Below are positions 338 through 6,791 of a stretch of DNA of 6,791 bases, in pieces (position 1 is the stretch's first letter; every line of letters begins with the position of its first letter). Under the pieces are notes generated by a model. That model saw nothing but the letters and a program-made list of their open reading frames with translations. It did no database searches and was not told where the DNA came from. Both the position numbers and the translations under genes were made by a program. Location of the stretch: the NCBI GenBank assembly GCA_025774615.1, contig JALGVQ010000155.1:1-6791 (forward strand), given 5' to 3'. Source of the DNA: a bacterium. Lineage in GTDB: Bacteria; Blakebacterota; Blakebacteria; Blakebacterales; Blakebacteraceae.

Positions 338-417
338 CGTATGTTGAACCTGACTCAGAACTCTAACGGGTACGGGACGTGAGGTCAGGTGAAAAGGTGA
401 GGCGGGGAGTACCCGTA

Positions 418-446
418 TTGACCCTCTCAGGAGCCTGCGGTAAGGT
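418..446 (+). promoter_or_regulatory. Candidate sigma70-type promoter for the S9 peptidase gene
   Basis: TTGACC at 418-423 matches five of six bases of the -35 consensus. It is followed after exactly 17 bases by TAAGGT at 441-446, which keeps the three most important -10 positions (T1, A2, T6). Transcription would begin near 453, leaving a leader of about 37 bases before the ATG at 490. This supports the start at 490 over the upstream in-frame ATG at 379, which would lie upstream of the promoter. No equally good promoter was seen for the divergent aminotransferase in the same 165-bp gap. If the organism uses a Bacteroidota-type sigma factor (-7 TAnnTTTG), this call would be wrong. Confidence 0.4.
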
Positions 447-489
447 GGGGCTTCCTGCTTTCAACCCCTTTAATGGGAGTTTCTATCAG

Positions 490-2532
490 ATGCAGATCCT
501 CCGTTCCCTCCTGGTGGTGTTCACCTTGATCACGATATCCGGGATTCCACTCGATGCGGTAGCGCAGTCGGGTAGTGACCCGATAACGCCGCGTGACCTG
601 TGGGCCATGGGCAGGGTAGGGGCACCGGCGATCAGTCCCGACGGGACCCGGATCGCCTACCCTGTGACGTGGTACGATGTCGATGCTGACCGGGGGAACA
701 GTGATATCTGGATGGTCGGGATCGAGGGAGGGGACTCGGTACAGCTGACCAGCTCTCCCGGGACCGACACATCACCAGCCTGGTCTCCTGATGGAAAGTG
801 GCTGGCCTTTGTCACAACCCGCGGTGGAGATGGTCCGCAGATCTATCTCCTCCCTGCTTCAGGCGGGGAGGCCCGGAGACTCACTTCAGCCGAGGGGGGA
901 GCCACCGGCCCGGTGTGGTCCCGGGACAGGAAGCAGATCCTGTTCATCAGCGAGGTCTGGCCGGAAGGTGATGAACAGGCCGATCGTCTGCGAACCCTCA
1001 GTGAGGGAACTACAGACGCGAAGATCTACGATGAACTGATGTACCGGCACTGGGACACCTGGGAAGACGGCATGCGGAGTCATGTGTTCATGGTGGACGT
1101 GGCCAGTGGTGTCGCACGCGATCTCACACCGGGCCCATATGACACACCTCCCATCTCGCTCGGAGGATTCCAGGATTACGATCTCAGTCCCGACGGGACC
1201 GAACTTGCGTTCGTTCGCAACACAGATGTGCCGACAGCGGTGGGGACCGATAATGACATCTGGGTTGTATCGACCGGCGGGGGTGAACCGGTTCTGCTTA
1301 CCAGTAATGAAGCCAATGACACCGCCCCCCAGTACAGCCCCGATGGCCGGTATATGGCCTACCTGGCGATGGAACGGCCCGGCTTCGAAGCCGATCGAAC
1401 ACGAATGATCCTCTATGACCGGGGGAGTGGAGAGCACCGGCCGCTGACCGAGGCCCTCGACCGGTCGATCGCGGACTTCGTCTGGGCGTCCGATTCCCGG
1501 AGTATCACCTTCACCTGTCAGGATCGGATCTACCGGAGCATCTACCGGGTGACGGTCGATGGGAGCACTCTCGAGCAGCTGACAACCGGTCATTATTTCG
1601 CAGGTCCTGCCCTCACACCGGATGGCAGACATATCGTCGCACTCTCGCAGGCGAACGACATGCCCTCCGAGCTGTTCATCATGGCCACTGATGGTTCAGG
1701 TATCCGTCAGCTCACCAGCACCAATGAAGGACTCCTGCCACGGCTCTCACTCGACTCAGCGGAAGTCTTCACCTTCAAGGGTGCCGGTGGGGATGATGTC
1801 GAAGGATTTCTGATCAGGCCACCCGGATTCGATCCGTCGAAAAAGTATCCGCTCGTCTACCTGGTGCACGGCGGTCCCCAGGGTGCCTGGAGTGATGTGT
1901 TCCACTACCGGTGGAACGCGAACATGTTCGCCGCTCCCGGGTACGTGGTTCTTTCGGTGAATCCGCGCGGCAGTACCGGGTACGGACAGCAGTTCACCGA
2001 CGAGATCACCCGCGACTGGGGTGGCAAGGTATACGAGGATCTCATGAACGGGCTCGACGCCGCTCTGGAGCGGTTCCCGTTCATTGATTCCACCCGCATG
2101 GCCGCCACGGGGGCATCCTACGGCGGCTACATGATGAACTGGTTCGAGGGGCATACCACGAGGTTCCGGACGCTCATCAACCATGATGGTGTGACGAACC
2201 TCTTCAGTATGTATGGCGCTACCGAGGAACTCTGGTTCCCCGAGTGGGAGTTCGGTGGACTGCCATGGGAGAATCCACGCTACTACGAGCGCTGGAATCC
2301 GATGGCGTTCGTGAAAAATTTCCAGACGCCGATGCTGATCATCCATGGCGGGCTCGATTACCGGGTTCCGCTGGGACAGGGGCTCGAGATGTTCACCGCC
2401 CTGCGCCGGACAGGTGTGAGGGCCCGTCTCCTCTATTTCCCTGACGAAGGGCACTGGGTCTTGCGCCCGCAAAACGCCATGGTATGGTGGGAGACGATCT
2501 ATGAGTGGCTGGCCGAATACCTGAAGGAGTAG
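490..2532 (+). CDS. Secreted S9 family peptidase, dipeptidyl-peptidase 5-like
   Basis: A 680-residue prolyl-oligopeptidase-family serine exopeptidase, predicted to release dipeptides or acylated residues from peptide N-termini in the periplasm or outside the cell. Residues 1-25 form a Sec signal peptide (basic R5, hydrophobic 6-19, AVA cleavage site before QSG). Residues about 45-425 are a beta-propeller of PD40/WD40-like blades, with repeated SPDG motifs near 49, 99, 233, 283 and 376 and degenerate copies between. Residues about 426-680 are the alpha/beta hydrolase: oxyanion HGGP at 460-463, nucleophile Ser543 in GASYGGY, Asp623 in HGGLDYRVP, His655 in DEGHW. Length and triad spacing agree closely with Porphyromonas gingivalis DPP5 (about 684 residues, Ser542, as I recall), which prefers Ala or hydrophobic P1 residues; specificity here is inferred. 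I chose the ATG at 490 because it begins the signal peptide and has GGGAG ten bases upstream; an in-frame ATG at 379 would add 37 non-hydrophobic residues. Likely the first gene of a two-peptidase operon. An acylaminoacyl-peptidase activity is the main alternative. Confidence 0.9.
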   Translation: MQILRSLLVVFTLITISGIPLDAVAQSGSDPITPRDLWAMGRVGAPAISPDGTRIAYPVTWYDVDADRGNSDIWMVGIEGGDSVQLTSSPGTDTSPAWSPDGKWLAFVTTRGGDGPQIYLLPASGGEARRLTSAEGGATGPVWSRDRKQILFISEVWPEGDEQADRLRTLSEGTTDAKIYDELMYRHWDTWEDGMRSHVFMVDVASGVARDLTPGPYDTPPISLGGFQDYDLSPDGTELAFVRNTDVPTAVGTDNDIWVVSTGGGEPVLLTSNEANDTAPQYSPDGRYMAYLAMERPGFEADRTRMILYDRGSGEHRPLTEALDRSIADFVWASDSRSITFTCQDRIYRSIYRVTVDGSTLEQLTTGHYFAGPALTPDGRHIVALSQANDMPSELFIMATDGSGIRQLTSTNEGLLPRLSLDSAEVFTFKGAGGDDVEGFLIRPPGFDPSKKYPLVYLVHGGPQGAWSDVFHYRWNANMFAAPGYVVLSVNPRGSTGYGQQFTDEITRDWGGKVYEDLMNGLDAALERFPFIDSTRMAATGASYGGYMMNWFEGHTTRFRTLINHDGVTNLFSMYGATEELWFPEWEFGGLPWENPRYYERWNPMAFVKNFQTPMLIIHGGLDYRVPLGQGLEMFTALRRTGVRARLLYFPDEGHWVLRPQNAMVWWETIYEWLAEYLKE

Positions 2533-2559
2533 GGGTCCTCGGCCATAGTGAAAGAGAAC

Positions 2560-2586
2560 GACCGCAGTCAAGCCCGGACCGCAGTC
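2560..2586 (+). repeat. 10-bp direct repeat between the two peptidase genes
   Basis: GACCGCAGTC occurs at 2560-2569 and again at 2577-2586, separated by seven bases, in the 92-bp gap. The start-to-start distance is 17 bases. It could be a tandem operator half-site, a remnant of a small duplication, or chance. No terminator-like hairpin was seen in the gap, so read-through from the upstream gene is expected. Confidence 0.5.
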
Positions 2587-2611
2587 GTGATTCGACCGTT
2601 ATCCGATCATC

Positions 2612-2617
2612 AGGAGG
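2612..2617 (+). promoter_or_regulatory. Shine-Dalgarno setting the start of the second peptidase
   Basis: A perfect AGGAGG lies seven bases before the ATG at 2625. This decides the start: the longer in-frame reading from the ATG at 2505 would overlap the end of the upstream gene, lacks such a site, and would bury the signal peptide behind 40 residues. Confidence 0.85.
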
Positions 2618-2624
2618 AAAAACA

Positions 2625-5354
2625 ATGCGAACAGGGTCACAGAGGAAGATCGAAGTCCTGGCGCGCCCGGTTCTGGTCCTTTTTGCCGCGTCCCTCGTCA
2701 TGGTTCTGACGACGGGCACTCTTACGGCACAGGGGACAAACCAGGACCCTCATGGCAGGTCAGTCAGAACAGCGAACTACACACTGGCAGCCCAGTGGAC
2801 TTCAGCGAAGTTGAGCCAGAGGACGTACAGCACGTCGGTGAACCCCGGCTGGCTGGAACACAGCGATCGGTTCTGGTACAGCTACCAGACACCGGCGGGA
2901 ACCAACTGGTTCCTGGTCGATCCGGCGAGGAAGACCAGGGCGCCATTGTTCAATTCGGTTAAGATGGCAGCGGATCTTTCGCGACTGACACGGGATCCCT
3001 ACGACCATCAGCACCTGCCGTTCAGCCGGTTCGAATTCATCGATGAGGACCAGGCTATCCGCTTCTCGGTGCAGAGCACCCGTCCGGCGGCGGAGGACAC
3101 CGCCAAAGCAGCGGAATCAGACACCACCGAGGGTGAGAGCAGCAGCAACAAGGTGTACCGGCCGACCGAGAAGACCCTCTGGTTCCGGTACGATTTCTCC
3201 TCCCAGCGCCTGACACAGCTGGAAGATTACGAGGAGGAGGAGAGTGAGCTGAGATGGGCGACCTTTTCTCCTGACTCGACCGTTGTGCTCTTTGCCCGCG
3301 ATCACAATCTGTGGATGATGGAGCGGGGCGAGTACGACCGGCTCAAGGCTCATGAAAATGAGAAGGAAGAGAGTGGTGGAGCACGCGGATCGCGTGGTGG
3401 CCGCGACCGGATGGAGCAGCGTACACAGCAGGCCGAAGAGGCCGAAGAGGAAGAGCAGGAAGAAGAAGAACTCGAGGTCACAGAGGTCAAGCTCACCACC
3501 GATGGTGAGGAGTATTACAGTTACGCCGGCAGCAGCTACGAGCGGATGAATACTGCCGAGTTCGACTCCACCGAACGCGTCCGTTGCGGCCGGGTCATCT
3601 GGGCTCCCGACAGCAACAGGTTCTCGCTCCAGCGCAGTGATGACCGTGAGGTCAAGGATCTCTGGGTGATCAACTCGCTGGCCAATCCGCGTCCGACACT
3701 CGAGACCTACCGCTACGCCATGCCGGGTGAAGAAGAGATGCCGCAGACCGAGGTCTGGGTCTTCGATATCGCTGAGCTCACTCAGACCCGGATCGATGTC
3801 GAGCTGTACAAGGACCAGACTGTCTCGGTGTACAGCAAGCGCAGGGATCCGACCATCCGGACCCCACAGCCGAGCACCTGGATGTCAGAGAACTCGACCG
3901 AGCTGTGGTTCTCCCGGCAGAGTCGGGACCTGCACAAGGTCGATATCTGTGTCGCCAACGTCGAGACCGGTGAGGTGCGGGTCGTTATCGAAGAACGCCT
4001 GAACACCTACATCGAGATGCAGGGCCTTGTGATGCTCAAGGACCGGAACGAACTGATCTGGTGGTCGGAGCGTGACGGCTGGGGCCATTACTACCTCTAC
4101 GGCACCGACGGCACCCTGAAGCGGCAGCTCACCTCAGGACCGTGGGCGTGTCGCGGCATCACCGGGATCGACAAGGATGAAGGGGTGATCTTCTTCACCG
4201 CTAACGGTCGTGAAGCCGGCGAAGACCCCTATTTCAACCACTTCTACCGGGTTGGTCTCGACGGCCGTGGTATGAAACTGCTCAACCCCGGTGATTTCGA
4301 TCACCGATCCTCGATCGATCCGAACAACCGTTACTTCGTGGACACCTTCTCCCAGGTGAACACCGCGCCGAAATCGATTCTCTTCAACGCCGACGGAGAG
4401 CAGTTGATGGATCTGGAGACGGCCGATCTTTCTCAGCTGTTCGAGGCCGGCTACCAGTACCCGGAGCCGTTCGTGGCCAAGGCCGATGACGGCGTGACCG
4501 ACATCTACGGGGTCATGTACAAGCCGTTCGATTTCGACCCTGCCAGGCAGTACCCGATCATTGCCTATGTCTACCCCGGTCCTCAGACCGAGAGTGTGGC
4601 CAAGGCGTTCTCTACCAACTCGACCACCACCTCGCTGGCGCAGTTCGGCTTCGTTGTGATCACCCTGGGGAACCGGGGTGGACACCCGAATCGGTCGAAG
4701 TGGTACCACAACTACAGTTACGGCGATCTGCGTGACTACGGACTGGCCGACAAGAAGGCCGTGATCGAGCAGCTGGCAGTACGTCATTCCTATGTAGATA
4801 TCGACAGGGTAGGGATCTTCGGCCACTCGGGGGGTGGGTTCATGTCAACCGCCGCCCTGCTGGTATATCCCGACTTCTTCAAGGTCGCGGTCTCTTCCTC
4901 CGGTAACCACGAGAACAACATCTACAACAAGTGGTGGAGCGAGAAGCACCACGGTGTCACCGAGATCATCAATGCCGATGGAACGGTCTCCTTCGAGTAC
5001 GATATCGACAAGAACTCGGAACTGGCCGGGAACCTGAAGGGGCACCTGCTCCTGACGACCGGGGATATCGACAACAACGTGCATCCCGGGGGCACGATCC
5101 GGATGGCAAACGCCCTCATCCAGGCGGGGAAGCGGTTCGACCTCTTCATCTTCCCCGGCGCCCGTCATGGTTACGGGGGGATGAGCAACTACTTCTCCTG
5201 GCTGCGGGCCGATTACTTCTGCAAGCACCTACTGGGAGATTATTCCACGAGTGTGGACATGATTGAACTGCTCCGTGAGCAGGATCAGAGCCCTGATGCC
5301 GGACGCCGATCAGGCGGAACCGTCAACCGGGGCGGCGGCAGAGGAGGTAATTAG
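2625..5354 (+). CDS. Secreted S9 family peptidase, DPP-IV-like (S9B) with low-complexity insertions
   Basis: A 909-residue prolyl-oligopeptidase-family peptidase, expected to cleave N-terminal dipeptides or related units from peptides outside the cytoplasm. Residues 1-35 are a long Sec signal peptide (RKIEVLAR, then a hydrophobic stretch 15-28, cleavage after LTA). Residues about 70-610 correspond to the DPPIV_N-type beta-propeller; recognisable blocks are LTTDGEEYYSY at 290-300, VIWAPDS at 324-330 and the following DLWVIN..ANPRPTLETYRY..PGEE stretch. Residues about 620-870 are the hydrolase: Ser735 in GHSGGGF, Asp816 in DIDNNVHP, His848 in ARHGYGG. The intervals of 81 and 32 residues nearly match human DPP-IV (630/708/740). 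Oddities are a polar linker (153-176), an RGG-then-poly-Glu insertion (241-284) and a Gly/Arg-rich C-terminal tail (about 889-909). The nucleophile motif lacks the usual Tyr of GWSYGG, and the DPP-IV double-Glu motif is not visible, so Xaa-Pro specificity should not be assumed. It lies 92 bp behind the first S9 gene and is followed by a terminator, so the two are probably co-transcribed. Confidence 0.9.
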   Translation: MRTGSQRKIEVLARPVLVLFAASLVMVLTTGTLTAQGTNQDPHGRSVRTANYTLAAQWTSAKLSQRTYSTSVNPGWLEHSDRFWYSYQTPAGTNWFLVDPARKTRAPLFNSVKMAADLSRLTRDPYDHQHLPFSRFEFIDEDQAIRFSVQSTRPAAEDTAKAAESDTTEGESSSNKVYRPTEKTLWFRYDFSSQRLTQLEDYEEEESELRWATFSPDSTVVLFARDHNLWMMERGEYDRLKAHENEKEESGGARGSRGGRDRMEQRTQQAEEAEEEEQEEEELEVTEVKLTTDGEEYYSYAGSSYERMNTAEFDSTERVRCGRVIWAPDSNRFSLQRSDDREVKDLWVINSLANPRPTLETYRYAMPGEEEMPQTEVWVFDIAELTQTRIDVELYKDQTVSVYSKRRDPTIRTPQPSTWMSENSTELWFSRQSRDLHKVDICVANVETGEVRVVIEERLNTYIEMQGLVMLKDRNELIWWSERDGWGHYYLYGTDGTLKRQLTSGPWACRGITGIDKDEGVIFFTANGREAGEDPYFNHFYRVGLDGRGMKLLNPGDFDHRSSIDPNNRYFVDTFSQVNTAPKSILFNADGEQLMDLETADLSQLFEAGYQYPEPFVAKADDGVTDIYGVMYKPFDFDPARQYPIIAYVYPGPQTESVAKAFSTNSTTTSLAQFGFVVITLGNRGGHPNRSKWYHNYSYGDLRDYGLADKKAVIEQLAVRHSYVDIDRVGIFGHSGGGFMSTAALLVYPDFFKVAVSSSGNHENNIYNKWWSEKHHGVTEIINADGTVSFEYDIDKNSELAGNLKGHLLLTTGDIDNNVHPGGTIRMANALIQAGKRFDLFIFPGARHGYGGMSNYFSWLRADYFCKHLLGDYSTSVDMIELLREQDQSPDAGRRSGGTVNRGGGRGGN

Positions 5355-5396: not shown

Positions 5397-5413
5397 GACG
5401 GTTGAGACAGAAA

Positions 5414-5450
5414 GGGCACCCGGTATCCTCTGCCGGGTGCCCTCTTCTAT
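5414..5450 (+). terminator. Intrinsic terminator after the peptidase pair
   Basis: GGGCACCCGG (5414-5423) pairs perfectly with CCGGGTGCCC (5433-5442) around a nine-base loop, giving a ten-base-pair GC-rich stem. It is followed by the pyrimidine-rich TCTTCTAT and preceded by AGAAA. The U-tract is imperfect, but the stem is strong. It ends the S9 transcription unit and isolates it from the cytochrome-porin gene. Confidence 0.88.
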
Positions 5451-5596: not shown

Positions 5597-5615
5597 GATG
5601 GGATGTGATGAGATG
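5597..5615 (+). promoter_or_regulatory. Cluster of four ATG codons at the translation start
   Basis: GATGGGATGTGATGAGATG places ATG at 5598, 5603, 5608 and 5613, each five bases apart. Those at 5598 and 5613 are in the gene's frame. The one at 5603 is followed at once by TGA, and the one at 5608 stops after one further codon, overlapping the start at 5613. There is no strong Shine-Dalgarno; GGGAT at 5600-5604 is the best match. I chose 5613 because MKTR followed by the hydrophobic stretch is a standard signal-peptide start. Confidence 0.5.
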
Positions 5616-6791
5616 AAGACGAGAATATTCCCTGCACTCCTGCTGTTTTCCTGCACTCTGATTATCGGAACCGTTCAGTCCGCGCAGGCTCAGCAGGGCG
5701 CGATGCTGTACGAGACGAAATGCAGCCGCTGTCATGCTGCCTTTGCTCCTTCAGACTACACCGCTGAAGAATGGCCGGGGATCGTCCGTTCGATGCGGGC
5801 CCAATCGGCCCTGACCGCTGAAGAAGAGCGAGTCATTACCGACTACCTGATATCCGAGAGTGAACAGTTCGAGGAGAGGTCAGGGAGGATCAGTTACAAA
5901 CCGGTACTCGGGGGATACCTCTACACCGAGTATTTCGAGACACCCCAGGCAAAGAAGAACTTCGACATCCACTACCTTGCCCTGTACGCATCGGGTTGGG
6001 TGAGTGAGAACATATATTACTTCGGTGAGTTCGAACTGGAGCACGGAGGTACGGGCGGCAGCAATACGTTCGTGGAACAGGCCTATCTCGATTACTGGAT
6101 CAGGCCGAATATCGCCATACGGATAGGGGCCATGCTCGCGCCCTTCAACCGGTTCGACGAGTTCCACGATCCGATCTCGAATTTCATCATCACGAGACCA
6201 CAGGTTTCACGTGAACTCGGTGTAAGCGCCTGGAAGGATGTCGGCGTCGATATTCACGGGTATTTCAATCTGAATACAGAGGCCTCCTTCGGATTCGATC
6301 TGTACACCATCAACGGTCTCGGAGGGGGCAGTAACCTCAGGGGAAGCCGGCAATACCGCGATAACAACGAGGATATGGCCCTGGGTGCGCGGGTGAACCT
6401 GATGTATTCAGATTTCCTCGAGGTAGGAGGGTCCCTCTACCAGGGAAAGTGGGACGACGCCGGTCTCTATAATCTCCAGATGCTCGGGGTACACGGCATG
6501 GTACGTACTCCCCTTGCGGATCTGTATGGAGAGTACATCAGTTCGACCTCTGAGAATGAAGCGCCTGCGGATGACGGGAAAATGTCCGGTTACTTCATCC
6601 AGGGATCGCGACTGTTCGACTTGAAATATCGGGCGACCATCCGTTACGGCGCACTCGACTATCTCGATCCGGGGGATCAGTTCGGCCGTGATCCCGCCAA
6701 GGGAGACAAGGATCTGAATGAGTTGGTGTTCGGTTTCACCTACTACCCGGTACCCCGGGCGGCGTTCAAAATCGAGTACAATCTCTTCGGG
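5613..6791 (+). CDS. Monoheme cytochrome c-outer membrane porin fusion (Cyc2-like architecture), 3' end missing
   Basis: The frame is open for 393 codons to the window edge. Residues 1-26 are a Sec signal peptide ending AQA before QQG. Residues 27-85 form a small class I cytochrome c domain: CSRCH at 37-41 binds one covalent heme with His41 as ligand, and Met61, within W54..IVRSM, is the probable distal ligand, followed by LTAEEERVITDYL as the closing helix. From about residue 95 the sequence changes to alternating amphipathic strands with aromatic girdles, as in phosphate-selective-porin-like (OprO/OprP) barrels: GGYLYTEYF at 100-108, YYFGEFELEHG at 135-145, and EQAYLDYW..PNIAIRIGAMLAPFNRF at 155-181. 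The last visible strands (FGFTYYPVPRAAFKIEYN) resemble the penultimate region of such porins, so perhaps 20-50 residues are missing. The arrangement suggests a heme held in or next to an outer-membrane pore, for electron transfer across that membrane as proposed for the iron oxidase Cyc2. Orthology to Cyc2 is inference. It is separated from the peptidases by a terminator. Confidence 0.85.
   Translation, partial: MKTRIFPALLLFSCTLIIGTVQSAQAQQGAMLYETKCSRCHAAFAPSDYTAEEWPGIVRSMRAQSALTAEEERVITDYLISESEQFEERSGRISYKPVLGGYLYTEYFETPQAKKNFDIHYLALYASGWVSENIYYFGEFELEHGGTGGSNTFVEQAYLDYWIRPNIAIRIGAMLAPFNRFDEFHDPISNFIITRPQVSRELGVSAWKDVGVDIHGYFNLNTEASFGFDLYTINGLGGGSNLRGSRQYRDNNEDMALGARVNLMYSDFLEVGGSLYQGKWDDAGLYNLQMLGVHGMVRTPLADLYGEYISSTSENEAPADDGKMSGYFIQGSRLFDLKYRATIRYGALDYLDPGDQFGRDPAKGDKDLNELVFGFTYYPVPRAAFKIEYNLFG

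Follow-up and report, generated by a model that had tools for sequence, protein, structure and literature searches.

A single reading frame that runs into the end of a contig from an uncultured bacterium encodes a small cytochrome c domain followed by an outer-membrane beta barrel, an architecture shared with Cyc2 in a protein that, by its sequence, is not Cyc2. Computation gave the order of the domains, 16 strands in the predicted barrel, a conserved Met61, a split-gene counterpart in other bacteria, and no Cyc2 signatures. We propose that the product carries a heme where a pore opens to the periplasm and that this heme would exchange single electrons with a soluble redox species. Support is good for a heme that sits on the periplasmic side and serves a solute pore, and the explanation as a whole has, in our judgment, an even chance of being right.

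The cytochrome-porin fusion gene is intact in a second genome

The window, that is, the whole stretch of DNA analyzed (6,791 bases), is an entire contig of a 3.3-Mb assembly that is 82% complete, from a phylum represented by just four genomes in our genome set. It carries an aminotransferase fragment (−), two S9-family peptidase genes (+), a hairpin, and the fusion frame (+), which has no stop in 393 codons and is open at the contig edge. The features are as follows.

5413 to 5443 (+), hairpin resembling an intrinsic terminator, located in the gap between the S9 peptidase and fusion genes; 13-bp stem with 9 G-C pairs
5613 to 6791 (+), cytochrome-porin fusion gene, 393 codons; the contig end cuts off about 21 residues, judged by the 413-amino-acid (aa) relative in a second metagenome-assembled genome (MAG)
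5613 to 5690 (+), signal peptide, residues 1 to 26 (...SAQA|QQG), read directly from the sequence; likely signal peptidase I
5691 to 5879 (+), monoheme cytochrome c domain of the DHC/TorC type, residues 27 to 89, from profile matches and the domain model
5721 to 5735 (+), heme-binding motif CSRCH, residues 37 to 41; C, C, and H invariant
5793 to 5795 (+), Met61, the probable distal ligand of the heme; 28 of 30 aligned relatives also have Met here
5880 to 5900 (+), short linker, residues 90 to 96, between the last helix (69 to 90) and strand 1 (97) of the model
5901 to 6791 (+), beta barrel of the Porin_O_P type; 15 of 16 predicted strands, the 16th lying past the contig end

An earlier note made from the letters of this DNA had described one uninterrupted frame with a signal peptide, a single CxxCH domain, and then a porin, a description that holds, and had called for the missing 3' end. 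A search of genome contigs supplied it by recovering one relative of the fusion, in a second MAG of the same genus ("Meg22_46_Bin_213," JALGWK010000253.1, positions 3369 to 4607), the only genus in which the fusion was seen. There the gene is whole and encodes 413 aa ending in IGIQIAVKF, so that the part missing from the contig copy amounts to one strand. The final residue is Phe, which is usual at the C terminus of outer-membrane barrels.

The two fusion proteins are 90% identical, with the signal peptide the least conserved part (73% identity). Over residues 27 to 393, the copies share 87% of their DNA sequence, with a dN of 0.047 and a dS of 0.64 (dN/dS, ∼0.07); taken by itself, the cytochrome part has a dN of 0.031 and a dS of 0.30. 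These values indicate purifying selection that keeps both domains in one frame. Assembly error joining two genes, which the earlier note had named among the findings that would refute its reading, and which the contig stopping inside the gene might suggest, can be practically dismissed, since both parts appear to be under selection in one frame in two MAGs with the identical layout and the frame is continuous and stop-free across the junction.

The terminator-like hairpin upstream suggests that the fusion gene is a separate transcription unit. The order peptidase-peptidase-fusion is common to both MAGs, and downstream of the fusion in the second MAG lies an unlinked convergent gene; none of these neighbors points to redox chemistry or metals. 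The peptidase genes themselves (positions 379 to 5354) encode Dpp5-like and DPPIV-like proteins of the S9 family.

The N-terminal domain resembles small cytochromes c and keeps a probable Met ligand

The heme-binding motif CSRCH and the probable distal ligand Met61, both proposed in the earlier note, are present. In the alignment of heme domains, the motif's C, C, and H are invariant, as are a P and a W; the Met61 column is occupied by Met in every barrel-linked relative aligned, and the two exceptions, both Tyr, are not barrel linked. Met61 is thus conserved where a barrel is linked, and it is the probable distal ligand of a heme that would be attached through CSRCH.

Pfam DHC (PF09626) matches the contig copy at 22.0 bits and the full-length relative at 22.2 bits (cut-off, 22.2); the second heme-binding motif expected for DHC is absent, as the fusion has one CxxCH only. 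The C-terminal stretch of NCBIfam TorC matches the cytochrome part at 34 bits, far below the whole-protein cut-off, and a PHROGs search gave one match over the same part, to a family of unknown function. Modeled alone, the domain is three-helical (pLDDT, 89), and its top fold matches are DHC (2fwt), cytochrome cz (3a9f), and SorB (2blf) at a Z score of ∼7, with Foldseek E values that are not significant alone (best, 0.38). The domain has the CxxCH, W, and Met pattern of the DHC, TorC C-terminal, and SorB group of small cytochromes c, which also supplies its best fold matches; the members of that group have two or more hemes or serve as subunits of enzymes and have no joined barrel, whereas the fusion is monoheme and continues into one.

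The C-terminal part is predicted to form a 16-strand barrel of the OprP/OprO fold

The earlier note expected a barrel after residue 95. The AlphaFold2 model of the 413-aa relative, built from an alignment of 47 sequences (pLDDT, 83; pTM, 0.78), bears this out with 16 strands at residues 97 to 412. The best solved matches to the barrel are the phosphate-selective porins OprP and OprO (OprP 2o4v; Z score, 27.7 over ∼308 residues; rmsd, 3.2), which share the fold, at 14% identity, and have no heme domain. Pfam Porin_O_P (PF07396) matches the full-length relative at 23.4 bits, above its cut-off of 20.9, and the shortened contig copy at 14.5 bits. A phmmer search against the sequences of solved structures returned only chance matches to lipases.

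Since the heme-domain helix ends at residue 90 and strand 1 begins at residue 97, the model would place the heme domain at the periplasmic rim of the barrel, provided that the usual porin orientation holds. We therefore picture one outer-membrane protein whose signal peptide is cleaved and whose His/Met-ligated monoheme domain would face the periplasm, joined through ∼7 linker residues to strand 1 of an OprP-like barrel with 16 strands. Placed where the solute pore opens to the periplasm, the heme would most likely exchange single electrons with a small soluble redox species that comes in through the pore, for which a metal ion or metal complex is the most plausible candidate, and would have periplasmic cytochromes as its partners. 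The term "electron conduit," used in the earlier note, needs softening: the cytochrome-porin fusion stands, but one periplasmic heme is not enough to bridge the membrane.

Several homologous barrels in other phyla have, as read from their sequences, a coiled-coil-like N terminus in place of the cytochrome, and net charge does not distinguish the barrel of the fusion from these heme-less relatives. An exchangeable N terminus would fit an ordinary porin whose cytochrome domain has no redox role and serves as a structural plug or membrane-docking module. We consider this improbable, as CxxCH and Met61 are kept and the values given above indicate strong purifying selection on the cytochrome domain.

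The fusion shares its layout, not its sequence, with Cyc2

Cyc2 is defined by the motif AXPXFAR[Q/K][T/Y] 5 residues before CXXCH and by PXL 4 residues after it (PMC8406198). The first motif is absent from the full-length relative, in which the residues ahead of CSRCH are SAQAQQGAMLYETK; after the heme motif, the sequence AAFAPSD has the P in place and a D instead of the L. For a profile comparison, we used five plasmid-borne Cyc2-family proteins carrying the published motif or a close form of it, which had been found with a consensus bait and then checked against that motif (PMC8406198). This profile scored 0.1 bits on the fusion, and hhalign of fusion alignments against it gave probabilities of 12.7% and 14.6%, the latter for an alignment spanning CxxCH alone.

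The Cyc2 of Acidithiobacillus and Mariprofundus and the fusion have in common a signal peptide (read by eye in the fusion), a single N-terminal CxxCH, a fused 16-strand OprO/OprP-like barrel, and a similar length. They differ in the type of heme domain, in the Porin_O_P-type barrel sequence, and in the Cyc2 motifs and profile match that the fusion lacks. A further difference is the host of the fusion, in which no heme-copper oxidase was detected. Of the two origins raised in the earlier note, a divergent Cyc2 thus finds no support, and the suspected independent fusion does; the fusion is probably convergent with Cyc2.

A separate protein of 417 aa (L020, positions 5883 to 7136, −), which has a single CxxCH at the N-terminal end ahead of a long C-terminal part, matches the Cyc2 profile weakly, at 19.7 bits; its gene lies near one for a heme-less barrel of the fusion's barrel family and one for a 6-heme protein.

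Cytochrome-porin fusions as such are already known, from Cyc2 and from Cyc572 of Leptospirillum, which is described as highly divergent from Cyc2 (PMC10654088). Compared by description only, the nearest structures reported for Cyc572 are PorB porins and those of the fusion are OprP/OprO. The MtrAB and PCC conduits likewise combine a barrel with c-type heme at the outer membrane, but in separate subunits and with a multiheme wire inside a barrel of ∼26 strands, whereas the fusion has a single CxxCH and 16 strands.

Homologous barrels and cytochromes occur as adjacent genes in several phyla

No other cytochrome-barrel fusion was found in the ∼500 genomes searched, where barrels and cytochromes occur separately. 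They are frequently neighbors: in 25 of 34 loci recovered via the cytochrome part, and so not selected for adjacency to a barrel, a homologous barrel gene lies directly upstream on the same strand. In 22 of the 25, the two genes overlap or lie no more than 65 bases apart (median gap, ∼19 bases). Counted among these 25 are all 11 loci added by a widened search in the phylum of one genome (G217) and 7 of the 8 added around another (G192). The split pairs encode small cytochromes, of which 23 of 25 match a simple pattern for a lipobox-like signal; the split heme protein would therefore be expected at the membrane beside the barrel. Gene order is barrel then cytochrome, the reverse of the order in the fusion.

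The split pairs come from several phyla, and their barrels belong to two or more distinct lineages. In the barrel tree, the cytochrome-linked barrels fall into two lineages, and their union in one clade is rejected (p-AU, 6e-6), which indicates that the association of barrel and cytochrome arose, or was kept, more than once. Grouping the fusion with lineage i is rejected in AU tests (0.005), and grouping it with lineage ii is not (0.085).

We tentatively suggest, at somewhat below even chances, that the fusion belongs to an undescribed family of single-heme outer-membrane redox porins, independent of Cyc2 and acting in metal redox chemistry, which would comprise the fusion in the source genus and a conserved two-gene module (barrel plus, in most cases, a monoheme lipoprotein) in several poorly studied phyla. 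In the literature searched, which excluded most subscription journals, we found no description of this fusion type or of the split pair. The presence of Cyc2 is taken as a sign of iron oxidation, and publications on Cyc2 treat its fused structure and its cytochrome motif as features of that family only. An unrelated second fusion suggests that such a layout has evolved anew, and the layout by itself therefore does not mark a protein as an iron oxidase. The split pair in several phyla offers a gene-neighborhood handle on an apparently undescribed placement of heme at an outer-membrane pore and would allow functional tests in whichever host grows most easily.

Two further loci were noted. At L019 (positions 5606 to 8474), a heme-less barrel of the fusion's family is encoded alongside a Rieske protein and a further protein bearing two CxxCH motifs, so that barrels of this type also occur in a different redox setting. 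A plasmid match in Candidatus Manganitrophus that appeared to combine cytochrome and barrel was rejected because the cytochrome is missing: the plasmid has a broken copy of a heme-less barrel of this family, close to a fragment of a Tn3 transposase (L132, positions 2017 to 3200), and another plasmid (L133) has an intact copy.

Genomic context bears on substrate and direction of electron flow

The substrate and the direction of electron flow we infer only tentatively, from genomic context. The earlier note had argued from the lack of any other cytochrome gene that the protein stands alone; there is none on its contig, but the genome encodes a decaheme and further multiheme cytochromes. A decaheme cytochrome of the DmsE family (219.6 bits against a cut-off of 192.2) lies on another contig than the fusion, in an MtrCAB-like cluster (L165, contig C34, positions 2294 to 12716), where the DmsE/MtrA-family gene is followed immediately by one for a candidate barrel of 626 aa that neither Pfam nor NCBIfam recognizes. 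The cluster adjoins c-type cytochrome assembly (Ccm) genes and a CusCBA-type efflux system. Cytochromes with 8 to 9 hemes that begin like lipoproteins belong to the cluster too; the genome encodes several such proteins, among them some that have MtrC-like domains, as well as Rieske and cytochrome b proteins. With a DmsE/MtrA-family decaheme and MtrC-like proteins, the host is probably already capable of extracellular electron transfer.

Heme-copper oxidase subunit I was not found in this 82%-complete genome, whereas the same model was positive in 8 of 14 control genomes. A strict Cyc2-type Fe(II) oxidase, in which Fe2+ would enter the pore and be oxidized at the heme, with electrons passing inward to a terminal oxidase, would fit the architecture and the OprP/OprO structural relatives, which have been reported for Cyc2 too (PMC8406198). 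Against it stand the missing motifs and profile match and the missing oxidase subunit, even though a CydA-like protein with a cytochrome domain exists; the host gene set does not favor oxygen-linked Fe(II) oxidation, and we regard such an oxidase as unlikely.

Outward transfer, in which periplasmic cytochromes would reduce the heme and the heme a soluble Fe(III), Cu(II), or other metal complex or a shuttle at the pore, is suggested by the decaheme gene beside its candidate barrel, the MtrC-like lipoproteins, and the multiheme proteins and cytochrome b complexes in a genome with no COX1 found. The fusion gene is, however, unlinked to the Mtr-like cluster, that route would already do the same job, and sequence cannot show direction; we see outward transfer as a possibility that falls well short of probable.

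Metal genes occur mostly near the split pairs of one barrel lineage: lineage ii pairs often lie near genes for CusA/CzcA RND, DUF2231, DUF302, P-II, and Met-rich proteins, and one lineage i locus has a DtxR-type metal repressor upstream. No relevant description of the DUF302/DUF2231/CusA/porin combination was found in the literature. The CusA/CzcA RND efflux, DUF302, DUF2231, and Met-rich genes and the repressor would suit metal homeostasis, with the heme setting the redox state of a passing metal (e.g., copper) or gating the pore in a redox-dependent way, outside respiration. No metal genes adjoin the fusion, however, and the class I cytochrome c that often precedes lineage ii pairs (15 loci) suits electron transfer equally, so we hold this reading to be rather unlikely. 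For this host, we slightly prefer outward transfer or metal handling over Fe(II) oxidation.

The CydA-like membrane protein (L159, positions 1165 to 2607) carries its cytochrome c domain at the C terminus and is encoded beside a cytochrome b gene.
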